A stretch of DNA of 64,000 bases from Bdellovibrionales bacterium. Lineage in GTDB: Bacteria; Bdellovibrionota; Bdellovibrionia; Bdellovibrionales; UBA1609. Each line of letters starts with the position of its first letter. The first letter of the stretch is position 1. Of the stretch, positions 7,280 through 18,525 are shown in pieces. The translations under genes were made by a program, and so were the position numbers. Below the pieces are notes generated by a model that saw nothing but the letters and a program-made list of their open reading frames with translations, made no database searches and was not told the DNA's origin. The stretch is from positions 62,001 to 126,000 of the forward strand of contig JAHBUX010000007.1 in NCBI GenBank assembly GCA_019637855.1, read 5' to 3'.

Positions 7280-8761
7280 TTAGTGCGGCTCCGCTCGGCG
7301 CCGCACTTTCTCTTTGTCACGATCGCGCTCTCGACCGAGACCTCTTCCCTTAACTTTACTCTCGCTCCCGCCCTCAGCTTTCATTTCGGCTTTAGGTGAT
7401 CCGCTTTTGCTGTCGGCTCGTCGTGCTCTGGCTTTGCTTTTCCAATACGGGCAAAGATCACGCATGGGCTTAGCTTCTTTTAAAAACTCCCGATCGACGA
7501 GTCCCAGGGCCCGGGTCAGATCTGAATCTCCTAAGCATTCGGCCAAACGGCGGCCCAGCTCATTTCGATGTGCATCCGACAGACGCGTGTTGGTGTAGCG
7601 CAGCTGACGAACATCAGCGACAACCTCGGCCACTTCCAAAGATGGCTCGTGGTAGGACGGATAAGGCGCATTGGCTGGGGGTGGACGACCTGAGAACGAG
7701 ACCAGCCAACGGTGATCGGGCTGCGGGATCCAGCGGTTCTCGAAGACCTCGATGTTCATGGCGCGGCCGTGCTCGTCCTTCACGCGAAACGGCAATTCGC
7801 CTGGCTTCGCACCCGAAATGTTCTCAGAATAGATTTTTTCACCCCAGGCCATCACAAAATAAGGACGGCCGGCTTTATCCGTTTTACGCGTCTCTTTCAG
7901 ACGAATGGTGCAATAGGTGGAAGACAGGTTTTGCAAATAGCGGATATCACGAATTCCGAGTTTGTAGGCAAAGTCGATCTGCTTGATTAAGCAGGGTGAG
8001 TCCATGATGTTCAACCGCACCAGGAATGGAAATTTGATACCTGTGCGTTCGTCGTAGTAGTCTCCGGCAACGAATTCATACCAAAATAAACCAAGTTTAT
8101 ATTGAGCGCTAATCTCCGGGGCAGGCTTGGCCTGCATTTGGTCCATGCGGAAGGTGTCGCTGCTGTAGGGAACCCAATAGGTTTTATTTTGCCCGCTAGC
8201 CGTAATAAAGCGAGGAGCGAAAATGCGACCGAGACCTTTAGCGCCGATCAGGAGCTCACCGGGCGGTAGCTTATCTTTGGGCGGTGGAGCGCCCTGGGCT
8301 TCAAAGCGCGAGATCACGCGCTCAAGACGGCTGACAGTGTAGCGCAGATACACAAAACGATCGTCATAGGTGAAGGCGTCGAAATCCGGCCGCAATTCCA
8401 GACCGCCGGCGAACAGAATCAGATTTTCATCAGTACCAAAAAAGAATTTCCGACCTTGATGGAAAAAGCGGCCCCAGGCGGTGCCCATTTTACCGGGCAA
8501 AATGTCGGTGCGCATGAGGTCGACAAAATCCATACGAAACTCCGGACCTTGTTCAGGCCCAGTTTTTTTCGACGCCGGTGCAACAGACGGAGCATGTGCG
8601 GTCTGCGCATGTTGGGGTGCCGTCGCAGCAGCAGGCTCTGCAGACTTGGCAGCGGGACGAGGTTGAAGAGCGGGAAGATTCGGCAACGAACGCTTGAAAA
8701 ACGCAAACGCCAAGGCCCCAGCCAAAAGAAGTCCCACGAGAATCATAAGCATGCGATTCAT
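7280..8761 (-). CDS. Membrane-anchored protein of unknown function with basic tail
   Basis: The protein has 493 residues. A single N-terminal transmembrane helix (MLMILVGLLLAGALAFAFF) is followed by a Pro/Ala-rich linker of about 40 residues and then a large globular periplasmic domain with many aromatic residues. The last ~45 residues are highly charged and mostly basic (runs of Arg, Lys, Asp, Glu), with a low-complexity look. I do not recognise a family. It is convergent with the pilin-like operon, and no partner is obvious. The strongly basic end could contact the envelope, nucleic acid or an acidic partner, but nothing in the sequence decides this. Confidence 0.75.
   Translation of the reverse strand: MNRMLMILVGLLLAGALAFAFFKRSLPNLPALQPRPAAKSAEPAAATAPQHAQTAHAPSVAPASKKTGPEQGPEFRMDFVDLMRTDILPGKMGTAWGRFFHQGRKFFFGTDENLILFAGGLELRPDFDAFTYDDRFVYLRYTVSRLERVISRFEAQGAPPPKDKLPPGELLIGAKGLGRIFAPRFITASGQNKTYWVPYSSDTFRMDQMQAKPAPEISAQYKLGLFWYEFVAGDYYDERTGIKFPFLVRLNIMDSPCLIKQIDFAYKLGIRDIRYLQNLSSTYCTIRLKETRKTDKAGRPYFVMAWGEKIYSENISGAKPGELPFRVKDEHGRAMNIEVFENRWIPQPDHRWLVSFSGRPPPANAPYPSYHEPSLEVAEVVADVRQLRYTNTRLSDAHRNELGRRLAECLGDSDLTRALGLVDREFLKEAKPMRDLCPYWKSKARARRADSKSGSPKAEMKAEGGSESKVKGRGLGRERDRDKEKVRRRAEPH
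7283..7316 (+). terminator. Hairpin terminator after the pilin-like operon
   Basis: An inverted repeat AGTGCGGC...GCCGCACT starts 11 bp after the operon's stop codon and is followed by TTTCTCTTT. It lies inside the last codons of the convergent gene at 7280-8761, so it may serve the plus strand while being read through as coding sequence on the other. Confidence 0.6.
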
Positions 8762-8900
8762 ATAAAAATTAACGCATTCAAAACAGCCTTAGTCCACTTT
8801 TGATTACTGAGAAGAAACGGTCCTGGTATTTGAGCCGTAAATCTATTCCGAGTTTTCGCAAAAGTGCACCCAGCCTTTGGGCTGATAACTTTAGGGACGG

Positions 8901-9296
8901 CTATATTTCCAACGATCGCAGCGGCGTGGCTTTGGTGTTTTCATCCACGGCAACAAGAACGAAACGCCCAGAGACCGCCTTGATGCGTTTGTCGCTGTAC
9001 ATGTCTTCCGTGTAAACATCGACGATCACTTCGATGCTGGAACGCCCCACCATACCGATCTGCGCGTCGAACTCCACTAGACTTCCGCTCGGAATGGGTT
9101 GATTGAAGTTGATCTTGTCACTACTGACCGTGACGACTTTCTGCCTGGAAAACCGGGTCGCGGCGATAAACGCCACTTCGTCCATCCAATGCAGGGCCGT
9201 ACCGCCAAACAGTGTGTTGTAGTGATTGGTTTCGCCTGGAAAAACAGCTTTAAACAGGCTCGTTCGAGCCGCGCGCTTGCGCTCCTCGATCTTCAT
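8901..9296 (-). CDS. Acyl-CoA thioesterase (hotdog fold, YciA/BACH type)
   Basis: The protein has 131 residues and one hotdog domain, as in YciA-like acyl-CoA thioesterases that hydrolyse acyl-CoA to free acid and CoA in the cytoplasm. The family motif is clear: NHYNTLFGGTALHWMDEVAF with the catalytic Asp near residue 39, and later FNQPIPSGSLVEF. The frame is open to 9356, but ATG 9296 has a strong GGAGG site 4 bases upstream and is the natural family start. Between this gene and the next gene upstream lie a cobalamin riboswitch and a terminator-like hairpin in the same orientation, so its expression is probably controlled by B12. This is an unexpected pairing. Confidence 0.9.
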   Translation of the reverse strand: MKIEERKRAARTSLFKAVFPGETNHYNTLFGGTALHWMDEVAFIAATRFSRQKVVTVSSDKINFNQPIPSGSLVEFDAQIGMVGRSSIEVIVDVYTEDMYSDKRIKAVSGRFVLVAVDENTKATPLRSLEI

Positions 9297-9344
9297 CGAC
9301 ACCTCCAATAGAAAGAGCGCCAATGATTTACATATTCGGAGTCT

Positions 9345-9364
9345 TAAAAAACCCAAGTCTCGGG
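9345..9364 (-). terminator. Attenuator hairpin between riboswitch and thioesterase
   Basis: On the minus strand CCCGAGACTTGGG can fold into a short stem, followed directly by six T residues. It lies between the cobalamin riboswitch and the ribosome site of the thioesterase, the position expected for a transcription attenuator. A second small hairpin (ACCTC/GAGGT) lies just before it. Confidence 0.5.
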
Positions 9365-9441
9365 CGAACCTCGAATGAGGTCATGACTGAGAAGCTGTGG
9401 TTCTCTTTGTTCCGAAGAGAAGATCACGTGCGCAAATTTTT

Positions 9442-9533
9442 ACCTATCGAAGCGATCGGACTTGGAAATACTAGGTTTCCTTACCGTTGCGGCACAGTGC
9501 CGGATTTTCACCGGACTTCAGCTTTCAATAGGT
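9442..9533 (-). promoter_or_regulatory. Cobalamin (B12) riboswitch
   Basis: On the minus strand the core elements of a cobalamin riboswitch appear in order: AAGTCCGGTGAAAATCCGG, then CACTGTGCCGCAACGGTAA, a small hairpin GGAAACCTAGTATTTCC, and the B12-box-like AAGTCCGATCGC. The outer strands ACCTATTGAAAGC and GCTTCGATAGGT pair over 12 positions and close the structure. These are the conserved features of the B12 family, and the order is right. The RNA leads into the acyl-CoA thioesterase gene about 145 bp downstream; no cobalamin synthesis or uptake gene is close by. The binding class (adenosyl- or methyl-cobalamin) cannot be told by eye. Confidence 0.88.
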
Positions 9534-9578
9534 AGTTTCAATCGAGAAAAGTTAGTCTGCAGGATCAATTGCTGTCAA

Positions 9579-9896
9579 TCAGGACTTCCTGACGCAAAGC
9601 CCTTGCATACGGATTCGATTCGTCCAGGAGAAGAATCCGTGGTCGGTGGAGTAGTCAGTTTGTATAGCTTGAATAGCCCCGCCGGGACAGGTTTGTTCAA
9701 GTTTCTTAAAGGCCTCGTTCACATAGTCGGTCTGGCCGACAAATCCAAGGACGACGAACTGTTCGGCTTCGGCTTGCACCCACTCCCCTTGCGCGAAGCG
9801 GGCGTAGGTGGGGGCGAAATCGCTGATTTGGCTGATGTGCAAGCTGTGCGTGCAACCACTGAGGATGACAGCAAGAAATGCTAAGCGCCAAATCAT
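9579..9896 (-). CDS. Small lipoprotein, member 3 of a tandem family
   Basis: The protein has 105 residues with a lipoprotein signal (lipobox LSGC, Cys15), so the mature protein should be lipid-anchored in the envelope. The mature part shares a pattern with the two genes upstream: a V-L-F/A-F stretch, then DYVN, a conserved CPGG about 15 residues later, and a last cysteine near the C-terminus (GLC). It starts with ATGA overlap on the stop of the preceding gene, so the three are one operon. I do not recognise the family by name. It is the last gene before the B12 riboswitch leader, which starts about 45 bp downstream on the same strand. Confidence 0.72.
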   Translation of the reverse strand: MIWRLAFLAVILSGCTHSLHISQISDFAPTYARFAQGEWVQAEAEQFVVLGFVGQTDYVNEAFKKLEQTCPGGAIQAIQTDYSTDHGFFSWTNRIRMQGLCVRKS

Positions 9897-10303
9897 TGTT
9901 GCAACCCATCGGCGTCGGCCGCCTCTGCAGGCGCACTTTTCTCAACCGAGTTCATACGACGCCCAGCTTTGCGGGGCTCAGCGCTAGCAACAGCGGCTTT
10001 GCTCTCGCAATAACCGGTGGCGGTGACTTTCTTTTTATAAACGATAAAGAGGAAGTACAAAATCGTTTCATCTTTAGTGAGGACGCCAGACACTTTGCCG
10101 CCCGGGCATTTAGCAGCCAGTTCGCGAGACATGGCATTGACGTAGTCGTTGTCGAAGTTAAAAGCCAAAAAGATCGTTTTCTCAGCGGTCGCGCTGACCA
10201 TGTTGTCTCGCTTAGCGGGGACCGAGGAGACCGAGACGCTGTTCAACGAGGCACAAGCCGAAAGAAGCCCACTCACCGCCATGAGAACTAAGATTCGCAA
10301 CAT
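9893..10303 (-). CDS. Small lipoprotein, member 2 of a tandem family
   Basis: The protein has 136 residues with a lipobox LSAC. The mature part has the same skeleton as its neighbours: IFLAFNFDNDYVN, then AAKCPGGKVSGVLT and a C-terminal KVTATGYC. The spacing of the two shared cysteines (CPGG and GYC) suggests one disulfide bond in the periplasm. A Lys/Ala/Glu-rich tail of about 35 residues follows the last cysteine and is specific to this member. A strong ribosome site (AAAGGAGAGG) lies in the end of the upstream gene, 2 bp separate the two reading frames, and the stop overlaps the next gene. Function unknown. Confidence 0.75.
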   Translation of the reverse strand: MLRILVLMAVSGLLSACASLNSVSVSSVPAKRDNMVSATAEKTIFLAFNFDNDYVNAMSRELAAKCPGGKVSGVLTKDETILYFLFIVYKKKVTATGYCESKAAVASAEPRKAGRRMNSVEKSAPAEAADADGLQQ

Positions 10304-11080: not shown

Positions 11081-14000
11081 TTGGGCAAGATCACGCGGAA
11101 GCTAGTCGTCCTTGGTTTTCTGTTTTCGTCCCGTTATGCACTCGCGACCACGCCAACACCACAGGTCGTTTTTGGGCCGAAGGTCTTCAGAGCCAGCATA
11201 CTGAAGCCCTCATATCAAAATAGCGGCTTCTCCGTGTCAAACCCTGCTCTATCGCCAGGGCGCTTACTAATTACAAACGGCACTGGATATGTGAAGCCGC
11301 CAAATCCCTGCCCTCGCTTTGATGGCCGCAATTTGATCCAAATTCTTACGTGCAATCTCAGCAATCTGGCCAACGTCGCGAAAGTGGCTCTTACTCGCGC
11401 TACGGACCTAGAAATCGTATTGAACGGCCATATCGTAGTTGCTCCGCAAAATTTCAACATAAAAACATCACAGCTAATTTTAAGTGTCGCACTTCAAACC
11501 AACAATGAGATCAAAGTGAAGATCCGCGGCCTTCCAACGGCCTACGTTACGATCCAAATTGATCGCACGACCTCCTCTAATCAGGCACCCCTAGCCAATT
11601 TTACTGTGACCCCAGGTCCCGCCACAGATCCTCTCAACTATAGTTTTGATGGGCGCACATCAAGCGATCCAGATGGAACTTTGACTTCCTATCTTTTCGA
11701 TTTTGGAGATGGAAACCAAGCACAGACTTCGGCCGCCAACCACCGCTTTGACTCCATCGGAACCTACAATGTCACTCTCACTGTGACAGACAACAAAGGC
11801 GCGCAGAATTCAAAAGTTGCGCAAGTAAATGTGCAGGACACTCGGCCGCCGATTTTAACGATCAACAGCCCATCTGAAGGGGCAAATTTAAACTCCACTT
11901 CAGTCCAAATTTCCGGATCCGCCGACGAACCTCTTCGCGAAGTCACAGCCCGCGGAGAAATGCTTGTCTTAGGTGCGGATCTCAAATCTTTTTCCGGCAC
12001 TGTAACTCTATCACCCGGAGCCAATACCATCCCATTCGTGGCTACGGATTTAGCGGGCAATTCCACCACCGTTAACCGTCATGTTACGCTGTCAATTAAC
12101 CGCCCACCTCTGGCATCCTTCACAATAAAAACTAAAGGCGGAATCGCCCCCCTCCTTGCCACCTTCGATGCCTCGCAGTCTACCGATCCCGACGGACACT
12201 CTTTAACCTATGCTTGGGATTTTGGAGACGGCGGGACTGACGTTGGTGCATTTGTCAGCCACATTTTCAATAGCACGGGTACCTTCGACGTCAAACTTAA
12301 GGTCACTGATTCAGCCGGCGAGTCTGCCATCCGAACCTCCCAGGTGGTGGTCACTCAAGCAAACCTTCCCCCCGATCCAACGACCATCGCGCCGACAATT
12401 TCGTTTAAAGGCGTCAGCCTTGTCTCAGAATCTTTAAATTTCTTGATCACTGGTACCAATCCAGTTCAGACCGGTGTTCTCACAGGCGCGCTAGACACCC
12501 GCCGCCAAACCCTTCTCCGAGGTCGCGTTTTGGCAGCCAATGGACAGCCTCTCTCGGCAGTTCAAGTCTCTGCTATCGGCCAGCCACAACTGGGCAAGAC
12601 CCTCACTCGTACCGACGGATATTTTGACTTGGTGATAAATGGTGGGGGCGCGATCCACCTCGAATTCCTCCGCAACGGCTATCTGCCGGTACATCGCCGT
12701 ATCGAATCTCTCTGGCGCGATATGAATCATATCACCAACGTGGTGATGACTCCGCTCGATAGCAAAGTCACGCGGATAAAATTAAGTTCCATGTCCCTGC
12801 AAGCTGTAGAAGGTTCCGTGGTCACCGACGAAAGAGGGCCGCGCAAGGCATTGGTCCTCTCTCCAGCAGGCAACTCTGCATCGATGATTCTTCCTGGTGG
12901 CGGTTCAGTTTCAACTGACAATCTTTCCATACGAATTACTGAATATACCGTGGGTGACAACGGAAGAAAGGCGATGCTGGCCGACCTACCGCCACACTCG
13001 GCTTACACGTATGCGATTGAAATGTCCGCGGATGAGGCGATAGCTGCGGGCGCCGTTCGCATCGACTTTGAAAAACCGCTCGTCTACTATGTTGAAAACT
13101 TCGTTGGACTGGCTCCGGGCTCGGCAGTTCCTAGCGGATACTATGATAGAGAGTCAGTCTCATGGAAAGCAGAAGAAGACGGAATCATCGTCAAGATCCT
13201 GAGCGTTCAAAACGGCAGCGCCACGATAAGCTTTGATGGAACGTCAGCAGCAACCGCACAGCGTATTTCTGAGTTTGGTATAACTAACGCAGAACTGGCA
13301 ATGCTCGGGAGCAAGTACACTGCCGGCCAAGAGCTCTGGCGGATTCCGATCGCGCACTTTTCTGGCTGGGACTTTAACTATCCATTCAGCCTTCCACCTG
13401 ACGCCACTGATCCAAATGGAGGCCCGGTTCTAGCCTCGAATGATCTTCCAGATCCCAATGGGCCTAACTTATGCCAAGGCTCAATCATTGAAGTTGAAAA
13501 TCAGGTCCTTGGCGAATCACTAGCCATTACAGGGACGCCATTTCGGCTTATGTATCGCTCTGACCGAGTTAAAGGGACGCCTCTCGCGAATTCCATCGAT
13601 ATTGAGCTCGCTGGGGACATTTCCAGCATGCCATCGCTTAGAAGTGTCTTGCTGAATGTCACCGCCGCCGGAAATCAGTTTTCCCAGGAGTTTACAAATC
13701 CTACCTCCTATCAGAAAACCACCTATTCGTGGGATGGGCGGGATGCTTACGGCAGAACTTTCTTTGGCGCCAGAAACGCGCAAGTGTCCATCGACTTCCG
13801 CTACCAAGGAGAGTATGTCGGGGGTGCCTATGATAAGATCGTGCGCTCTTTTGGCCAACTCTCGTCAGGAACTGGAGTTAGCAAGGCTCCGATCTACGGT
13901 TTAATCGACGTAAACCGACGCTACAATGTTTCTCTGGAGAGCAAGGACTCGCGGGTTTTCGGACTCGGTGGCTGGGGAATCGATGCCTATCACTTCTATT

Positions 14001-17000
14001 CTCCAATTAGTCAAAAAGTCTATCGTGGCGATGGTCGCTCCACCTCGCTTCAGCAAAACAATCAAGTCGTAGAAACAGTCATCGGCGATGCGACCTGGGA
14101 CGGAAACGGACCAATCACCGGAGCCGACGGGACGCCTGCATCTGGGGCATATATCAACAATCCCCGTCGCGTGCGAGTGGCTCCGAATGGAGATATATAC
14201 CTTGTCGACACCTTCAACTATCGCGTAATGCGCATAGACCGGAACGGCTTAATCTATCGCGTGTTCGGTGGAGGTACCGAACCTTTCTCAGAAGGCTTGC
14301 CCGCGACCTCGTTCAATATCTTGAGTGCATTGAACCCTGAACTTAATGATATCGCGTTCTCACCCAGTGGTGAGCTGTACTACGCTCAAGGCTCCAGAAT
14401 AATAAAGGTTGATAGTGCTGGAATTATGCATCTTGTTGGTGGCGACGGAAATCTGCCGTCAACTGTGCCGGCACCGGGCGATGGAGGCTTGGCTCGAGAT
14501 GCCAAGTTCCATACGATTTGGGAAATCAAATTCGGACCCGATGGCAGTTTGTATGTCATGGATGGAGGCGATCAACGCATTCGTCAAATTCGTCCAGACG
14601 GCTATATCGTGGCATTTGCAGGTGGCGGTGAAGGCGGCGATGGCAGCAGAGCCCAAGATGCTAGAATTGCCTTTCCCATGAGTTTCGCAATGTCGAGTGA
14701 TGGCATGGCCTATGTGGCGGGTTCAGATTTGAAGGTTCTTCGCATTCGGCCCGATGGTATAGTTGAAACTTACCTACAAGGCTTTTTCCAAGACCGAAAT
14801 GAGATTACGACTCCACGAGAAATCATCGCAGCCCCCGATGGTTCTCTTTATATTTTAACTCACCCGGATTCGAACTCTCTGCCCAACATTATTCTTAAAG
14901 TTGACCCCGATAAGACCATAACTCGGATTGCCGGCACAGATAGCGGAGGATTTAACGGCGATGGACGTCTGCCGACAGAAACCCAATTCCTCGCGCCTAA
15001 TGGTATGGCCCTCCATCCAGACGGCTCTCTCTTAATTGCGGACACTCAAAACTCTCGTCTGCGTCGCATTCGCTCGGTTCTCCCCGCCTTCTCAGGAGGA
15101 TTGACTACGATTCCGTCACAGGATGGAAGTGAGTACTATTTCTTCTCTGCTTTAGGCCTACATTTAGAAACCCGAGACACCCTGACGGGTGCTATCAAGT
15201 ACAAATTTGAACATGACAGCCACAGTCTTCTGACGAAGATCCATGATCGCACTGGCAATGTGACCGAAATTGTCCGTGACGGCAGCGGAATGGCCACGGA
15301 AATCATTTCTCCTTTTGGACATCACACTCGATTCACATCGGATGCGAATGGATACCTACAGTCGGTCACGAATCCGATGAACGAAAAATATCAGATGTCC
15401 TATGATGGAGACACTGGTCTATTGCTGGAATTTAAAGATGCAAGACAGAACTCGACAACTTTTAACTATGACGAACGCGGAAGGTTGCGTAGAGAAACTC
15501 GTCCAAATCAAGGGTTTTTGGAGCTCCTGCGTGCAGATCTTCAGCGGCCGCGTAAGGGTTACGAAGTTTCAAGATCGACCTCTCAGGGTTATACCGCTCG
15601 GCATCTTGTCGAAAACGATGCTACCGGCAACAAAATGGTTCAAACGTGGGAAGACGGAGGCAGCGGCAGGTTCACTGCGCTTGAAGGTAAACATGAACGC
15701 AAGCGTCGGGACCAAAGCATATGGAACGCCCATCAGGCGCCGGATCCCATTTTTGGCCTGCAGTCTTCCTATTACAGCGCAGAGGCCACCAAACTTCCTT
15801 CTGGTCTCACGCAAGAGGTGTCGCGAAATCGATCCGCCCAGTTTTCTTCAAGCTCCGGCCTTCCAGTGATTGAGTCCCTCTCCCAAGCAACGATGATCAA
15901 CGGGAAAACGTATTCCGCACAATATAGCGGGAGCAACCGTCTACTCCGGCTATCAACGCCAGAGGGACGCCTGAGCCAGATTCAGCTTGATTCTATCGGG
16001 CGTGTATCGGCCTATCAGATTGGAGGCTTGGAACCGGTCAGTCTTTCCTTCAATGCAAAAGGTCTTCTTAGCCAAAGTCAGCAAGGCGCAAGACGTGTTC
16101 AGATAACTTACAATGCGCAAGGGTTGATCGAGGAAACCACAAATGCATTAAATCAGAAGAATCAATTCAGCTACGACCAGGCGGGCCGCATCGAGAGTCA
16201 GCAACTCCCTGATGGTCGCAGTATTGGCTTTTCGTATGACGCAAATGGAAATCTAACCGGAATTACCCCACCAGGGCGTCCGATGCATCAGTTTTTGCTC
16301 AACGCGATGAACCTCGTGAGCTCTTATTTGCCTCCCTCCCTAGGCGCCACCCCGATAAATACAATTTATAGTTACAACTCCGATAGCCAGCTCACGCGCG
16401 TGCAACGTCCTGATGGCCAGGATGTACTGCTTAACTACGACTCGGCTAGGGCACAGCTTCGTTCTATCCAAACGTCTCTCGGAGCCAACAGTTTCAACTA
16501 TTCAAGTGTGACAGGACAGCTTACCTCTCTGAGCTCGTATGACGGGCAAAACGTCGCTCTACAATATGATGGCCCCTTTTCCCGCAGCGAGTCCTGGTCA
16601 GGAGTGGTCGCAGGATTTGTGACCCGCGATCTCAACGCCGACTTTAATGTCGTCAAAGAAGACATCTCTGGCAATATCATTGCCTTCACGTTCGACAATG
16701 ATCGCCTCCTAAAATCAGCTGGTCAGGAGCAGATCACTCGCCATGCAACGACAGCCCAAGTTATAGCTACTCAATTGGGCGGCGTGAATGAGGCTTTCAC
16801 TTACAACAATTTCGGAGAGCTCTTAACTTACTCCGCACCCGGGTTCAGTTCTCAGCTTGTGCGCGACAATCTGGGACGCGTAATTCAAAAAACCGAGACG
16901 GTGCTCTCCTCGACGAATGTATTTGAGTACGGATATGACGACACCGGTCGTTTAACGACCGTCAGACAAAATGGATCGAACACTTCCACCTATGGTTATG

Positions 17001-18085
17001 ACTCGAATTCAAATCGTCTTTCTAGAAACAACACGCTTGCGACCTACGACTCGCAAGACCGTTTGCTCAACTATGGCGGCTTAACTTTTACCTATACCAA
17101 CAATGGAGAAATCCGCACAAAAACGGATTCAGGCGATGTCACCACGTTTGACTATGATGTATTTGGCAACCTCAAGCGTGTGACCCTTCCTAATGGAAGG
17201 GCAATCTCCTACGTCGTGGATGCCTTAAACCGACGTGTTGCAAAGAAGGTAAACGGAACTCTTGTTCAAGGTTTCTTATACAAGGACGGCTTAAGACCGA
17301 TTGCCGAGTTGAATTCTCAGGGCCAGATTTCGAGCGTCTACGTATATGGCGTACGTTCGAACGTACCCGACTATATCGTCAAGCAAGGGGTGATTTACAA
17401 GATCATCTCAGACCATCTCGGCAGTCCTCGCTTGATCATTCGCGCTTCAGATCTTCAAGTCATGCAACGTTTGGAATACAACGAATTTGGCATGGTTGTT
17501 TCAGATTCCAATCCCGGATTTCAACCCTTTGGCTTCGCAGGCGGCCTCTATGATTCGGATACGGAACTCGTACGGTTTGGCGCGCGGGATTACGACCCTG
17601 AGACGGGGCGGTGGACGAGTAAGGATCCGATATTGTTTAATGGTGGGGATACGAACCTTTATGGGTACACTTTCAACGACCCAATCAATCTTATCGACCC
17701 GACTGGGCTGACATGGGAATACAACAATGGCACCGGTCAGTTGACCCATATTGACAATAATACGGGAGTACGGACGCCGGCTGGAACAGGGTATTCTGGA
17801 ACTGGTCAGGGAAGGAATAATCCTGATATGTCTCCAGTTAGCAATGTGGGACCAATCCCAACAGGTTCCTACACGATACGGCCACCTATCAACTCGCCAC
17901 AAACTGGCCCTAACGCACTTCCGCTGAATCCTAATTCAGGCACAAACACCTTTGGGCGCTCCGGCTTTCAGATACATGGCAATAACCCTTCGAACGACGC
18001 CTCTCATGGGTGTATAATCTTGCCACCTGGTGTTCGTAATCAGATAATTAATAGCGGCGACAATGATCTTAACGTGGTGAACTAA
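11081..18085 (+). CDS. Secreted RHS/YD-repeat polymorphic toxin with Tlde1-like C-terminal domain
   Basis: The protein has 2334 residues. It starts at TTG 11081 after GGGAG, with a signal peptide (residues 1-23). Two PKD domains follow (about 165-250 and 343-425), a carboxypeptidase-regulatory-like fold (about 483-560), NHL-type repeats (about 1000-1350) and YD repeats (about 1370-2150). The RHS core end is GARDYDPETGRWTSKDPI and NDPINLIDPTGL, after which the sequence turns variable, as in all RHS toxins. The last ~125 residues carry H2299 and C2311 in HGNNPSNDASHGCI, the active-site pattern of Tlde1/DUF2778 L,D-transpeptidase-like toxins, which attack peptidoglycan precursors in the periplasm. 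No PAAR or VgrG part is present, so export is Sec-dependent and delivery is unknown. The exported protein encoded next is the likely immunity factor. Confidence 0.88.
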   Translation: MGKITRKLVVLGFLFSSRYALATTPTPQVVFGPKVFRASILKPSYQNSGFSVSNPALSPGRLLITNGTGYVKPPNPCPRFDGRNLIQILTCNLSNLANVAKVALTRATDLEIVLNGHIVVAPQNFNIKTSQLILSVALQTNNEIKVKIRGLPTAYVTIQIDRTTSSNQAPLANFTVTPGPATDPLNYSFDGRTSSDPDGTLTSYLFDFGDGNQAQTSAANHRFDSIGTYNVTLTVTDNKGAQNSKVAQVNVQDTRPPILTINSPSEGANLNSTSVQISGSADEPLREVTARGEMLVLGADLKSFSGTVTLSPGANTIPFVATDLAGNSTTVNRHVTLSINRPPLASFTIKTKGGIAPLLATFDASQSTDPDGHSLTYAWDFGDGGTDVGAFVSHIFNSTGTFDVKLKVTDSAGESAIRTSQVVVTQANLPPDPTTIAPTISFKGVSLVSESLNFLITGTNPVQTGVLTGALDTRRQTLLRGRVLAANGQPLSAVQVSAIGQPQLGKTLTRTDGYFDLVINGGGAIHLEFLRNGYLPVHRRIESLWRDMNHITNVVMTPLDSKVTRIKLSSMSLQAVEGSVVTDERGPRKALVLSPAGNSASMILPGGGSVSTDNLSIRITEYTVGDNGRKAMLADLPPHSAYTYAIEMSADEAIAAGAVRIDFEKPLVYYVENFVGLAPGSAVPSGYYDRESVSWKAEEDGIIVKILSVQNGSATISFDGTSAATAQRISEFGITNAELAMLGSKYTAGQELWRIPIAHFSGWDFNYPFSLPPDATDPNGGPVLASNDLPDPNGPNLCQGSIIEVENQVLGESLAITGTPFRLMYRSDRVKGTPLANSIDIELAGDISSMPSLRSVLLNVTAAGNQFSQEFTNPTSYQKTTYSWDGRDAYGRTFFGARNAQVSIDFRYQGEYVGGAYDKIVRSFGQLSSGTGVSKAPIYGLIDVNRRYNVSLESKDSRVFGLGGWGIDAYHFYSPISQKVYRGDGRSTSLQQNNQVVETVIGDATWDGNGPITGADGTPASGAYINNPRRVRVAPNGDIYLVDTFNYRVMRIDRNGLIYRVFGGGTEPFSEGLPATSFNILSALNPELNDIAFSPSGELYYAQGSRIIKVDSAGIMHLVGGDGNLPSTVPAPGDGGLARDAKFHTIWEIKFGPDGSLYVMDGGDQRIRQIRPDGYIVAFAGGGEGGDGSRAQDARIAFPMSFAMSSDGMAYVAGSDLKVLRIRPDGIVETYLQGFFQDRNEITTPREIIAAPDGSLYILTHPDSNSLPNIILKVDPDKTITRIAGTDSGGFNGDGRLPTETQFLAPNGMALHPDGSLLIADTQNSRLRRIRSVLPAFSGGLTTIPSQDGSEYYFFSALGLHLETRDTLTGAIKYKFEHDSHSLLTKIHDRTGNVTEIVRDGSGMATEIISPFGHHTRFTSDANGYLQSVTNPMNEKYQMSYDGDTGLLLEFKDARQNSTTFNYDERGRLRRETRPNQGFLELLRADLQRPRKGYEVSRSTSQGYTARHLVENDATGNKMVQTWEDGGSGRFTALEGKHERKRRDQSIWNAHQAPDPIFGLQSSYYSAEATKLPSGLTQEVSRNRSAQFSSSSGLPVIESLSQATMINGKTYSAQYSGSNRLLRLSTPEGRLSQIQLDSIGRVSAYQIGGLEPVSLSFNAKGLLSQSQQGARRVQITYNAQGLIEETTNALNQKNQFSYDQAGRIESQQLPDGRSIGFSYDANGNLTGITPPGRPMHQFLLNAMNLVSSYLPPSLGATPINTIYSYNSDSQLTRVQRPDGQDVLLNYDSARAQLRSIQTSLGANSFNYSSVTGQLTSLSSYDGQNVALQYDGPFSRSESWSGVVAGFVTRDLNADFNVVKEDISGNIIAFTFDNDRLLKSAGQEQITRHATTAQVIATQLGGVNEAFTYNNFGELLTYSAPGFSSQLVRDNLGRVIQKTETVLSSTNVFEYGYDDTGRLTTVRQNGSNTSTYGYDSNSNRLSRNNTLATYDSQDRLLNYGGLTFTYTNNGEIRTKTDSGDVTTFDYDVFGNLKRVTLPNGRAISYVVDALNRRVAKKVNGTLVQGFLYKDGLRPIAELNSQGQISSVYVYGVRSNVPDYIVKQGVIYKIISDHLGSPRLIIRASDLQVMQRLEYNEFGMVVSDSNPGFQPFGFAGGLYDSDTELVRFGARDYDPETGRWTSKDPILFNGGDTNLYGYTFNDPINLIDPTGLTWEYNNGTGQLTHIDNNTGVRTPAGTGYSGTGQGRNNPDMSPVSNVGPIPTGSYTIRPPINSPQTGPNALPLNPNSGTNTFGRSGFQIHGNNPSNDASHGCIILPPGVRNQIINSGDNDLNVVN

Positions 18086-18525
18086 TGAAATTCTTTATTC
18101 TTTTTATTTCAATTTTATTTAGTTTCGCGGCCTTGGGTGAATCTGGCCTTCGAGCGGAAGTCAAAAAAGTTCGTTATCAGATCTACAAGGAAACATGCGA
18201 GGGCGTAAACTGTAGACGGACTCCGATTAAATCTGGCCAAGTCACAATCAAGCTGGAGGCTGAAAATGAAAATTACAGCTGGGGTATTACGACGGAGAAC
18301 CTTAAAGATCAGAAGATCGAATATAAGCTCATCATTAGTATTTCTGTTGAGAACCAAAAAAAATATCGGCTTCAAAGTTCAATTCTAAGGTCTGAATCGG
18401 GACAAAAGGCAGCTTTCTCGTCAGCTGCCATTGTAATGAGTGGCTATACACCAGGTTTAGAATTGATCTTAGAGCCTTCCGAAGGGGCAGGATCACAAAC
18501 TCGCGCCAGTCTGATTCTCGAGTGA
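18085..18525 (+). CDS. Exported protein, likely immunity to the RHS-Tlde1 toxin
   Basis: The protein has 146 residues with a Sec signal peptide (FFILFISILFSFAALG), so it should be periplasmic. It starts on the last base of the toxin's stop codon (TAATG), the tightest possible coupling. The mature part is predicted mostly beta, with two cysteines (CEGVNC). A toxin that acts on peptidoglycan needs a periplasmic antidote, and this is the only adjacent exported protein, so immunity is the natural reading. I do not recognise it as a known Tldi family; the assignment rests on location and coupling. Confidence 0.65.
   Translation: MKFFILFISILFSFAALGESGLRAEVKKVRYQIYKETCEGVNCRRTPIKSGQVTIKLEAENENYSWGITTENLKDQKIEYKLIISISVENQKKYRLQSSILRSESGQKAAFSSAAIVMSGYTPGLELILEPSEGAGSQTRASLILE

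Follow-up and report, generated by a model that had tools for sequence, protein, structure and literature searches.

What is a cobalamin riboswitch doing in front of a gene for an acyl-CoA thioesterase? The question is raised by the window, a stretch of 64,000 nucleotides from a Bdellovibrionales genome that was analysed as a whole. B12-independent isozymes are named as one category of B12-riboswitch target in the regulon survey PMC3766115. The answer developed here, which is held to be fairly probable, is that the riboswitch represses the thioesterase gene and that B12 shortage releases an enzyme which would hydrolyse stalled propionyl- or methylmalonyl-type CoA esters.

The riboswitch and the gene behind it

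An Rfam scan of the whole window returned two matches, one tRNA and one AdoCbl (cobalamin) riboswitch, whose aptamer lies on the minus strand at 9547-9426 (RF01482, 60.2 bits against a gathering cut-off of 50, E 1.5e-8). The core and closing stem that a first-pass annotation had described on this strand are thus borne out, as is their location, but not the extent, since the aptamer runs to 9547 and so past the 9533 given earlier. A check against Rfam models, proposed at the same time, came out positive for RF01482 and negative for RF00174, against which the aptamer scores 28.3 bits with a gathering cut-off of 31.5; model R1, which counts the window sequence itself among its members, gives 77.1 bits. 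In common with RF01482, RF00174 and RF01689 of Rfam clan CL00101, the window switch has the core and the P3 closing helix, and possibly complementarity between loops L5 and L13. P3 comprises 11 pairs within 9534-9441 (minus strand), formed by the arms TACCTATTGAA (9534-9524) and TTCGATAGGTA (9451-9441), while the core and the 3' box, CCGCAACGG and AAGTCCGA, are present at 9493-9483 and 9463-9456. L5 reads UGCCG (9494-9490, minus strand) against a consensus of UCCCG (PMC10653944). The P13 hairpin (9421-9401, minus strand), a 7-bp stem of UUCUCUU and AAGAGAA, carries the loop L13 CGGAACA (9414-9408), which is proposed as the kissing partner of L5; a duplex fold predicts five possible pairs including a bulge, at -4.7 kcal/mol. 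Searches with RF01482 and RF00174 found a single other cobalamin riboswitch in the same genome (L003, G000:C5:34868-35030), located before an unrelated signal-peptide/membrane protein of 269 aa that matches no Pfam family. Proteins resembling the latter follow cobalamin riboswitches in two further genomes (G028 and G008; L010 and L012), and in G008 the lookalike is divergent from a TonB-receptor gene.

The gene behind the switch does encode a thioesterase, a 131-aa hotdog protein of the 4HBT family (9296-8901, minus strand; PF03061, E 2.5e-16, 60.2 bits against a cut-off of 20.6). The 151-aa reading frame assigned to it before (8901-9356) likely starts too early, as judged from the ATG at 9296-9294, the Shine-Dalgarno sequence GGAGG read from the sequence at 9306-9302 (minus strand) and the agreement of this start with the relatives. 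The thioesterase follows a hairpin, as had been stated, whereas the claim that no other gene follows is unproven, since a 493-aa gene lies on the same strand about 140 nt further on with just a weak hairpin in between. The protein shares its fold family and motifs with the YciA and ACOT acyl-CoA thioesterases, but it is not a YciA equivalog, scoring 48.8 against the curated cut-off of 162 for NCBIfam NF007970. Its best relatives of solved structure are 2GVH (Agrobacterium AGR_L_2016p, E 3.6e-47), which unlike the window protein has 288 aa with two matched stretches in a tandem hotdog arrangement, and 2EIS (T. thermophilus TTHB207, E 7.1e-34), a close relative deposited as a hypothetical protein. 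Nearly all riboswitch-linked members of the subfamily carry TNHY or TNHH before the FGG motif, a position at which most paralogues differ.

Three tandem paralogues, small and lipoprotein-like with a CPxG...GxC-type motif, occupy the same strand just upstream of the riboswitch (10755-9579, minus strand). On the plus strand a PKD/teneurin-YD/RHS protein of 2334 aa that ends in a Tlde1 domain (11081-18085) is followed by an orphan secreted-looking ORF (18085-18525), which could encode its immunity protein.

Conservation and operon partners

A scan of genome contigs yielded 80 relatives, and the subfamily, delimited at E <= 1e-28, occurs in 31 of 369 genomes of the phylum Bdellovibrionota. The nearest relatives belong to the Bacteriovoracaceae (67-75% identity) and have a short cobalamin riboswitch directly upstream. 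Thirty subfamily loci were inspected, namely the window's own, that of G025 and 28 others, and a cobalamin riboswitch stands just upstream in 27 of them, as scored with either Rfam or R1, a model derived from 16 of the leaders themselves; many fall below the Rfam cut-offs, and the three exceptions are G025, L142 and L149. R1 matched none of 30 paralogous or unlinked thioesterase loci (L014-L043, among them L015, the locus of G025). The search for the same arrangement in relatives, suggested by the first-pass annotation, has thus been answered in its favour within the phylum and, as set out below, in others. In a tree of 141 proteins, built from few columns and with many open forks, the window protein falls in a clade of 12 rows in which every gene is riboswitch-linked (SH-aLRT 99), and riboswitch presence changes 8 times against a mean of about 41 after shuffling. 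The P3 helix is maintained by compensatory change: in an arm-swap test on 25 leaders including that of the window, cognate arms score 14.48 against a mean of 10.96 for swapped ones (sd 0.46, maximum 12.24 of 300 swaps). A comparison of leaders further indicates that L13 changes together with L5, UCCCG being matched by CGNGGA and, in Deinococcus, UCGCG by CGCGNNA.

It could be argued that the riboswitch is a remnant or serves another gene and that its position is accidental, as the G025 gene is of the same family and 59% identical to that of the window but has no riboswitch, and other genomes of the window's genus lack the subfamily gene. However, the pairing is conserved far beyond the window genome and tracks one thioesterase subfamily, recurring in several other phyla and in 27 of 30 orthologous loci against none of the 30 paralogue controls, and an accident is therefore ruled out as having next to no probability. 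Restriction of the arrangement to the window's genus was ruled out as well, since the gene is missing from genus neighbours but present in other families and phyla. The regulatory linkage between riboswitch and thioesterase is well supported by these comparisons.

Many of the leaders differ from the Rfam cobalamin riboswitches in being shortened or extended by hairpins, and lie below the cut-offs (L124-L127 and Deinococcus). An extra hairpin in the arm before the core is seen in L124-L127 (leaders at about 1330-1500 in gene orientation), L154, L158 and L161-L163, all below Rfam cut-offs, whereas L132, L133, L143-L147 and L151 hold very short aptamers that lack any helix between core and AGTCCGA box. 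In L137 and L148 (=L094) a very small ORF, preceded by a Shine-Dalgarno sequence of its own, separates riboswitch and thioesterase; the products, MNISSDL-stop and MNFIITS-stop, are possibly leader peptides. One thioesterase locus has as its neighbour a divergent gene for a TonB-dependent receptor, preceded by a TPP riboswitch (L045:1209-1311, minus strand).

Under cobalamin riboswitches the subfamily is also found in Deinococcota, Bacteroidota and Alphaproteobacteria. The order in Thermus is riboswitch, thioesterase, in some cases MetE, and then NrdB and NrdA; on pTT27 of T. thermophilus HB8 the thioesterase gene, whose product we take to be the TTHB207 of PDB 2EIS, stands after a cobalamin riboswitch and before nrdB-nrdA. 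Allomeiothermus has riboswitch, nrdI, nrdE, nrdF and thioesterase, and Deinococcus a divergent riboswitch below the Rfam cut-off followed by the thioesterase, with nrdI-nrdE-nrdF next in three of five plasmids. Flavobacteriales show either riboswitch-thioesterase-NrdB-NrdA or riboswitch-MetE-thioesterase, while in Shinella and Ensifer a riboswitch, metE and a tandem-hotdog thioesterase precede a second riboswitch with nrd genes. Members without a riboswitch exist in Marinomonas and many Bacteroidota, in addition to the three Bdellovibrionota loci named above.

Without need of B12, MetE takes the place of MetH and NrdAB that of NrdJ, and in several phyla the subfamily shares riboswitch-led operons with one or the other. 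The control of these isozymes and of the thioesterase has in common the RNA class, often the operon, and the logic of B12 shortage. On account of the shared operons the thioesterase belongs among the B12-shortage genes, a role for which the co-location with MetE and NrdAB in these genomes provides support, and the control of the enzyme by a B12 riboswitch that the first-pass annotation had proposed is strengthened by these operons and by the conservation of the pairing in one subfamily. Unlike MetE and NrdAB, which replace B12 enzymes, it is not an isozyme; being a thioesterase and not a mutase, it works alongside them and would relieve a stalled reaction instead. In the window it follows the switch without a MetE or NrdAB partner.

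A different partnership is seen in Marivirga, where the order is riboswitch, BtuB-like receptor, DUF5074 lipoprotein and thioesterase; the lipoprotein may be BtuG-like, BtuG being a lipoprotein of the cell surface whose gene adjoins btuB (PMC6143338). This operon, and the DUF4430 protein encoded immediately 3' of one riboswitch-controlled thioesterase (L050:4383-4817), would suit an enzyme that serves corrinoid uptake or remodelling, by thioester or ester hydrolysis in cobamide salvage, and not acyl-CoA metabolism. Such a role is nevertheless judged improbable, as the partners in Thermus, Deinococcus, Flavobacteriales and Rhizobiales are B12-independent isozymes and not salvage genes, and we know of no hotdog thioesterase in any corrinoid salvage step.

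Mode and direction of the switch

A candidate promoter lies 5' of the aptamer (9578-9549, minus strand), with TTGACA at 9578-9573, an 18-nt spacer and TAACTT at 9554-9549. It is weak, the -35 element being perfect and the -10 element only 3/6, and it was missed by the promoter scan and read from the sequence. The alternative raised by the first-pass annotation, that the thioesterase has its own promoter downstream of the hairpin, gained nothing from that scan, which no sigma-70-like promoter passed across 8700-9950. The terminator-like hairpin is present at 9365-9351 followed by T5, and forms part of a candidate intrinsic terminator, GCCCGA-GAC-UUGGGU-UUUUU (9365-9346, minus strand), but it does not rise above chance by itself: 1.7 such matches are expected by chance in the region, and it is thus weak on its own.

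A candidate antiterminator (9406-9346, minus strand) would form by pairing of AGAGAACC (9406-9399, the 3' side of P13 and the next bases) with GGUUUUUU (9353-9346). This long alternative stem and P13 are mutually exclusive, whereas the short terminator is compatible with P13; P13 together with the short terminator is the minimum free energy fold at -22.0 kcal/mol, against -20.1 for the antiterminator alternative. Two near-equal states are what a switch would require, and those predicted here seem to resemble the repressing model of P. megaterium metE (PMC10653944). With B12 bound, P13 would be stabilised via the L5-L13 kissing loop and the terminator would be free to form, while in the absence of B12 the 3' side of P13 would pair with the 3' arm of the terminator and the U-tract, and transcription would go on. 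A terminator mechanism of this kind is what the folds suggest for the window. In short leaders the sequence [U/A]CC-CGNGGA-GG[A/U] places the Shine-Dalgarno inside L13/P13, and because of this position a direct block of translation is proposed for most Bdellovibrionota relatives, where CGNGGA of L13 holds part of the ribosome-binding GGAGG and the kissing loop would occlude it.

B12 probably represses the thioesterase gene, although the sign of the window switch is not certain, because one activating corrinoid riboswitch has been documented (PMC10653944). If the window switch, which is of the same design, behaved in this way, P13 would antiterminate when B12 is bound and the thioesterase would be made at high B12, and the mutual exclusion of P13 and the long stem would fit. 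It would be harder to reconcile with the short terminator, which can form together with P13 in the most stable fold, with the Shine-Dalgarno held in L13/P13 of the relatives, which fits repression, and with the partners MetE and NrdAB, which are needed when B12 is scarce; activation is accordingly regarded as very improbable.

B12 enzymes and the role of the thioesterase

Under repression by B12, the thioesterase would be kept off while adenosylcobalamin is plentiful and made in B12 shortage. An adenosylcobalamin-dependent acyl-CoA mutase of the methylmalonyl-CoA mutase (MCM) family would stall in the same shortage, and the thioesterase may then act on propionyl-CoA, methylmalonyl-CoA or a related acyl-CoA with a short branched chain, freeing the CoA by hydrolysis, which would make it a third B12-shortage response beside MetE and NrdAB. 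To our knowledge no B12-free isozyme exists for methylmalonyl-CoA mutase, the third widespread B12 enzyme. The window's own genome uses B12, since it encodes an MCM-family mutase (two matches), NrdJ (above the curated cut-off) and MetH. Co-occurrence with the mutase inside the phylum is uninformative as a test, as 336 of the 369 genomes have an MCM-family mutase. Outside the phylum the mutase is present in 13/13 riboswitch-bearing genomes against 11/16 without the switch, a contrast drawn from a small sample that ignores the kinship of the genomes; the five without mutase, all switch-less, are three Marinomonas, one Cyclobacterium and one Lysobacterales. PrpD, the usual methylcitrate dehydratase, was above cut-off in none of 42 genomes, with distant matches in four. 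In Paracoccus (L160, L166) a hotdog relative about 38% identical and outside the subfamily leads prpD-prpC-prpB, beside a divergent short-chain fatty acyl-CoA regulator. The mutase co-occurrence, the absence of PrpD and the Paracoccus gene favour a propionyl- or methylmalonyl-type substrate, as the first-pass annotation had suggested by way of example; the substrate range of such hotdog enzymes can be wide.

Such breadth would also suit a B12-shortage gene with a general job, the clearing of acyl-CoA that is mixed or misprimed, such as fatty acyl-CoA with odd or branched chains arising from methylmalonyl-CoA that enters lipid synthesis, in place of the relief of one short-chain CoA ester. Among solved structures the nearest relatives are acyl-CoA hydrolases, the cytosolic ACOT and YciA types among them, which have low specificity, the NCBIfam YciA model gives a weak match, and in two Deinococcus loci the gene stands before a ketoacyl-ACP-synthase-III-like gene. 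The partners, however, are mostly MetE or NrdAB, and a related gene sits among the methylcitrate genes of Paracoccus; a general job appears unlikely, if still deserving some weight. The relief of a stalled short-chain CoA ester remains the preferred reading, in which ligand response and physiological role are deduced from genome comparison. A more specific proposal, that the subfamily is a dedicated B12-starvation propionyl-/methylmalonyl- (or isobutyryl-)CoA hydrolase, a third partner of MetE and NrdAB under cobalamin riboswitches in at least four phyla, is quite conceivable and is put forward tentatively.

No link between a cobalamin riboswitch and this thioesterase was found in the open-access literature searched, a set that stops short of the founding B12-regulon papers of 2003 (J Biol Chem, RNA), and the enzyme is unmentioned in PMC9600662 and PMC2258182 and in the main text of the regulon survey PMC3766115. 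The target that the first-pass annotation had called unexpected is thus apparently undescribed, but it is not an isolated case, as it recurs across phyla. The B12 regulons of RegPrecise may contain an acyl-CoA hydrolase label, so that an earlier listing is possible. The RNA class and the logic of B12 shortage are known already; what appears to be new is the type of target, how widely it occurs, and the riboswitch forms that score below threshold.

Of the three common B12 enzymes, two have riboswitch-controlled stand-ins in MetE and NrdAB. It is less clear what bacteria do when methylmalonyl-CoA mutase stalls, particularly if they have no methylcitrate cycle, and the thioesterase offers a concrete and testable answer. 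The analysis also yields a set of cobalamin riboswitches under the Rfam thresholds and a possible function for the solved protein TTHB207 (2EIS). If the dedicated hydrolase is real, B12-short bacteria would excrete propionate or methylmalonate, as B12-deficient people excrete methylmalonate. Overall, recurrence in at least four phyla, often beside the B12-free backup enzymes, suggests that the thioesterase may be an overlooked third backup for B12 shortage, one that frees coenzyme A.
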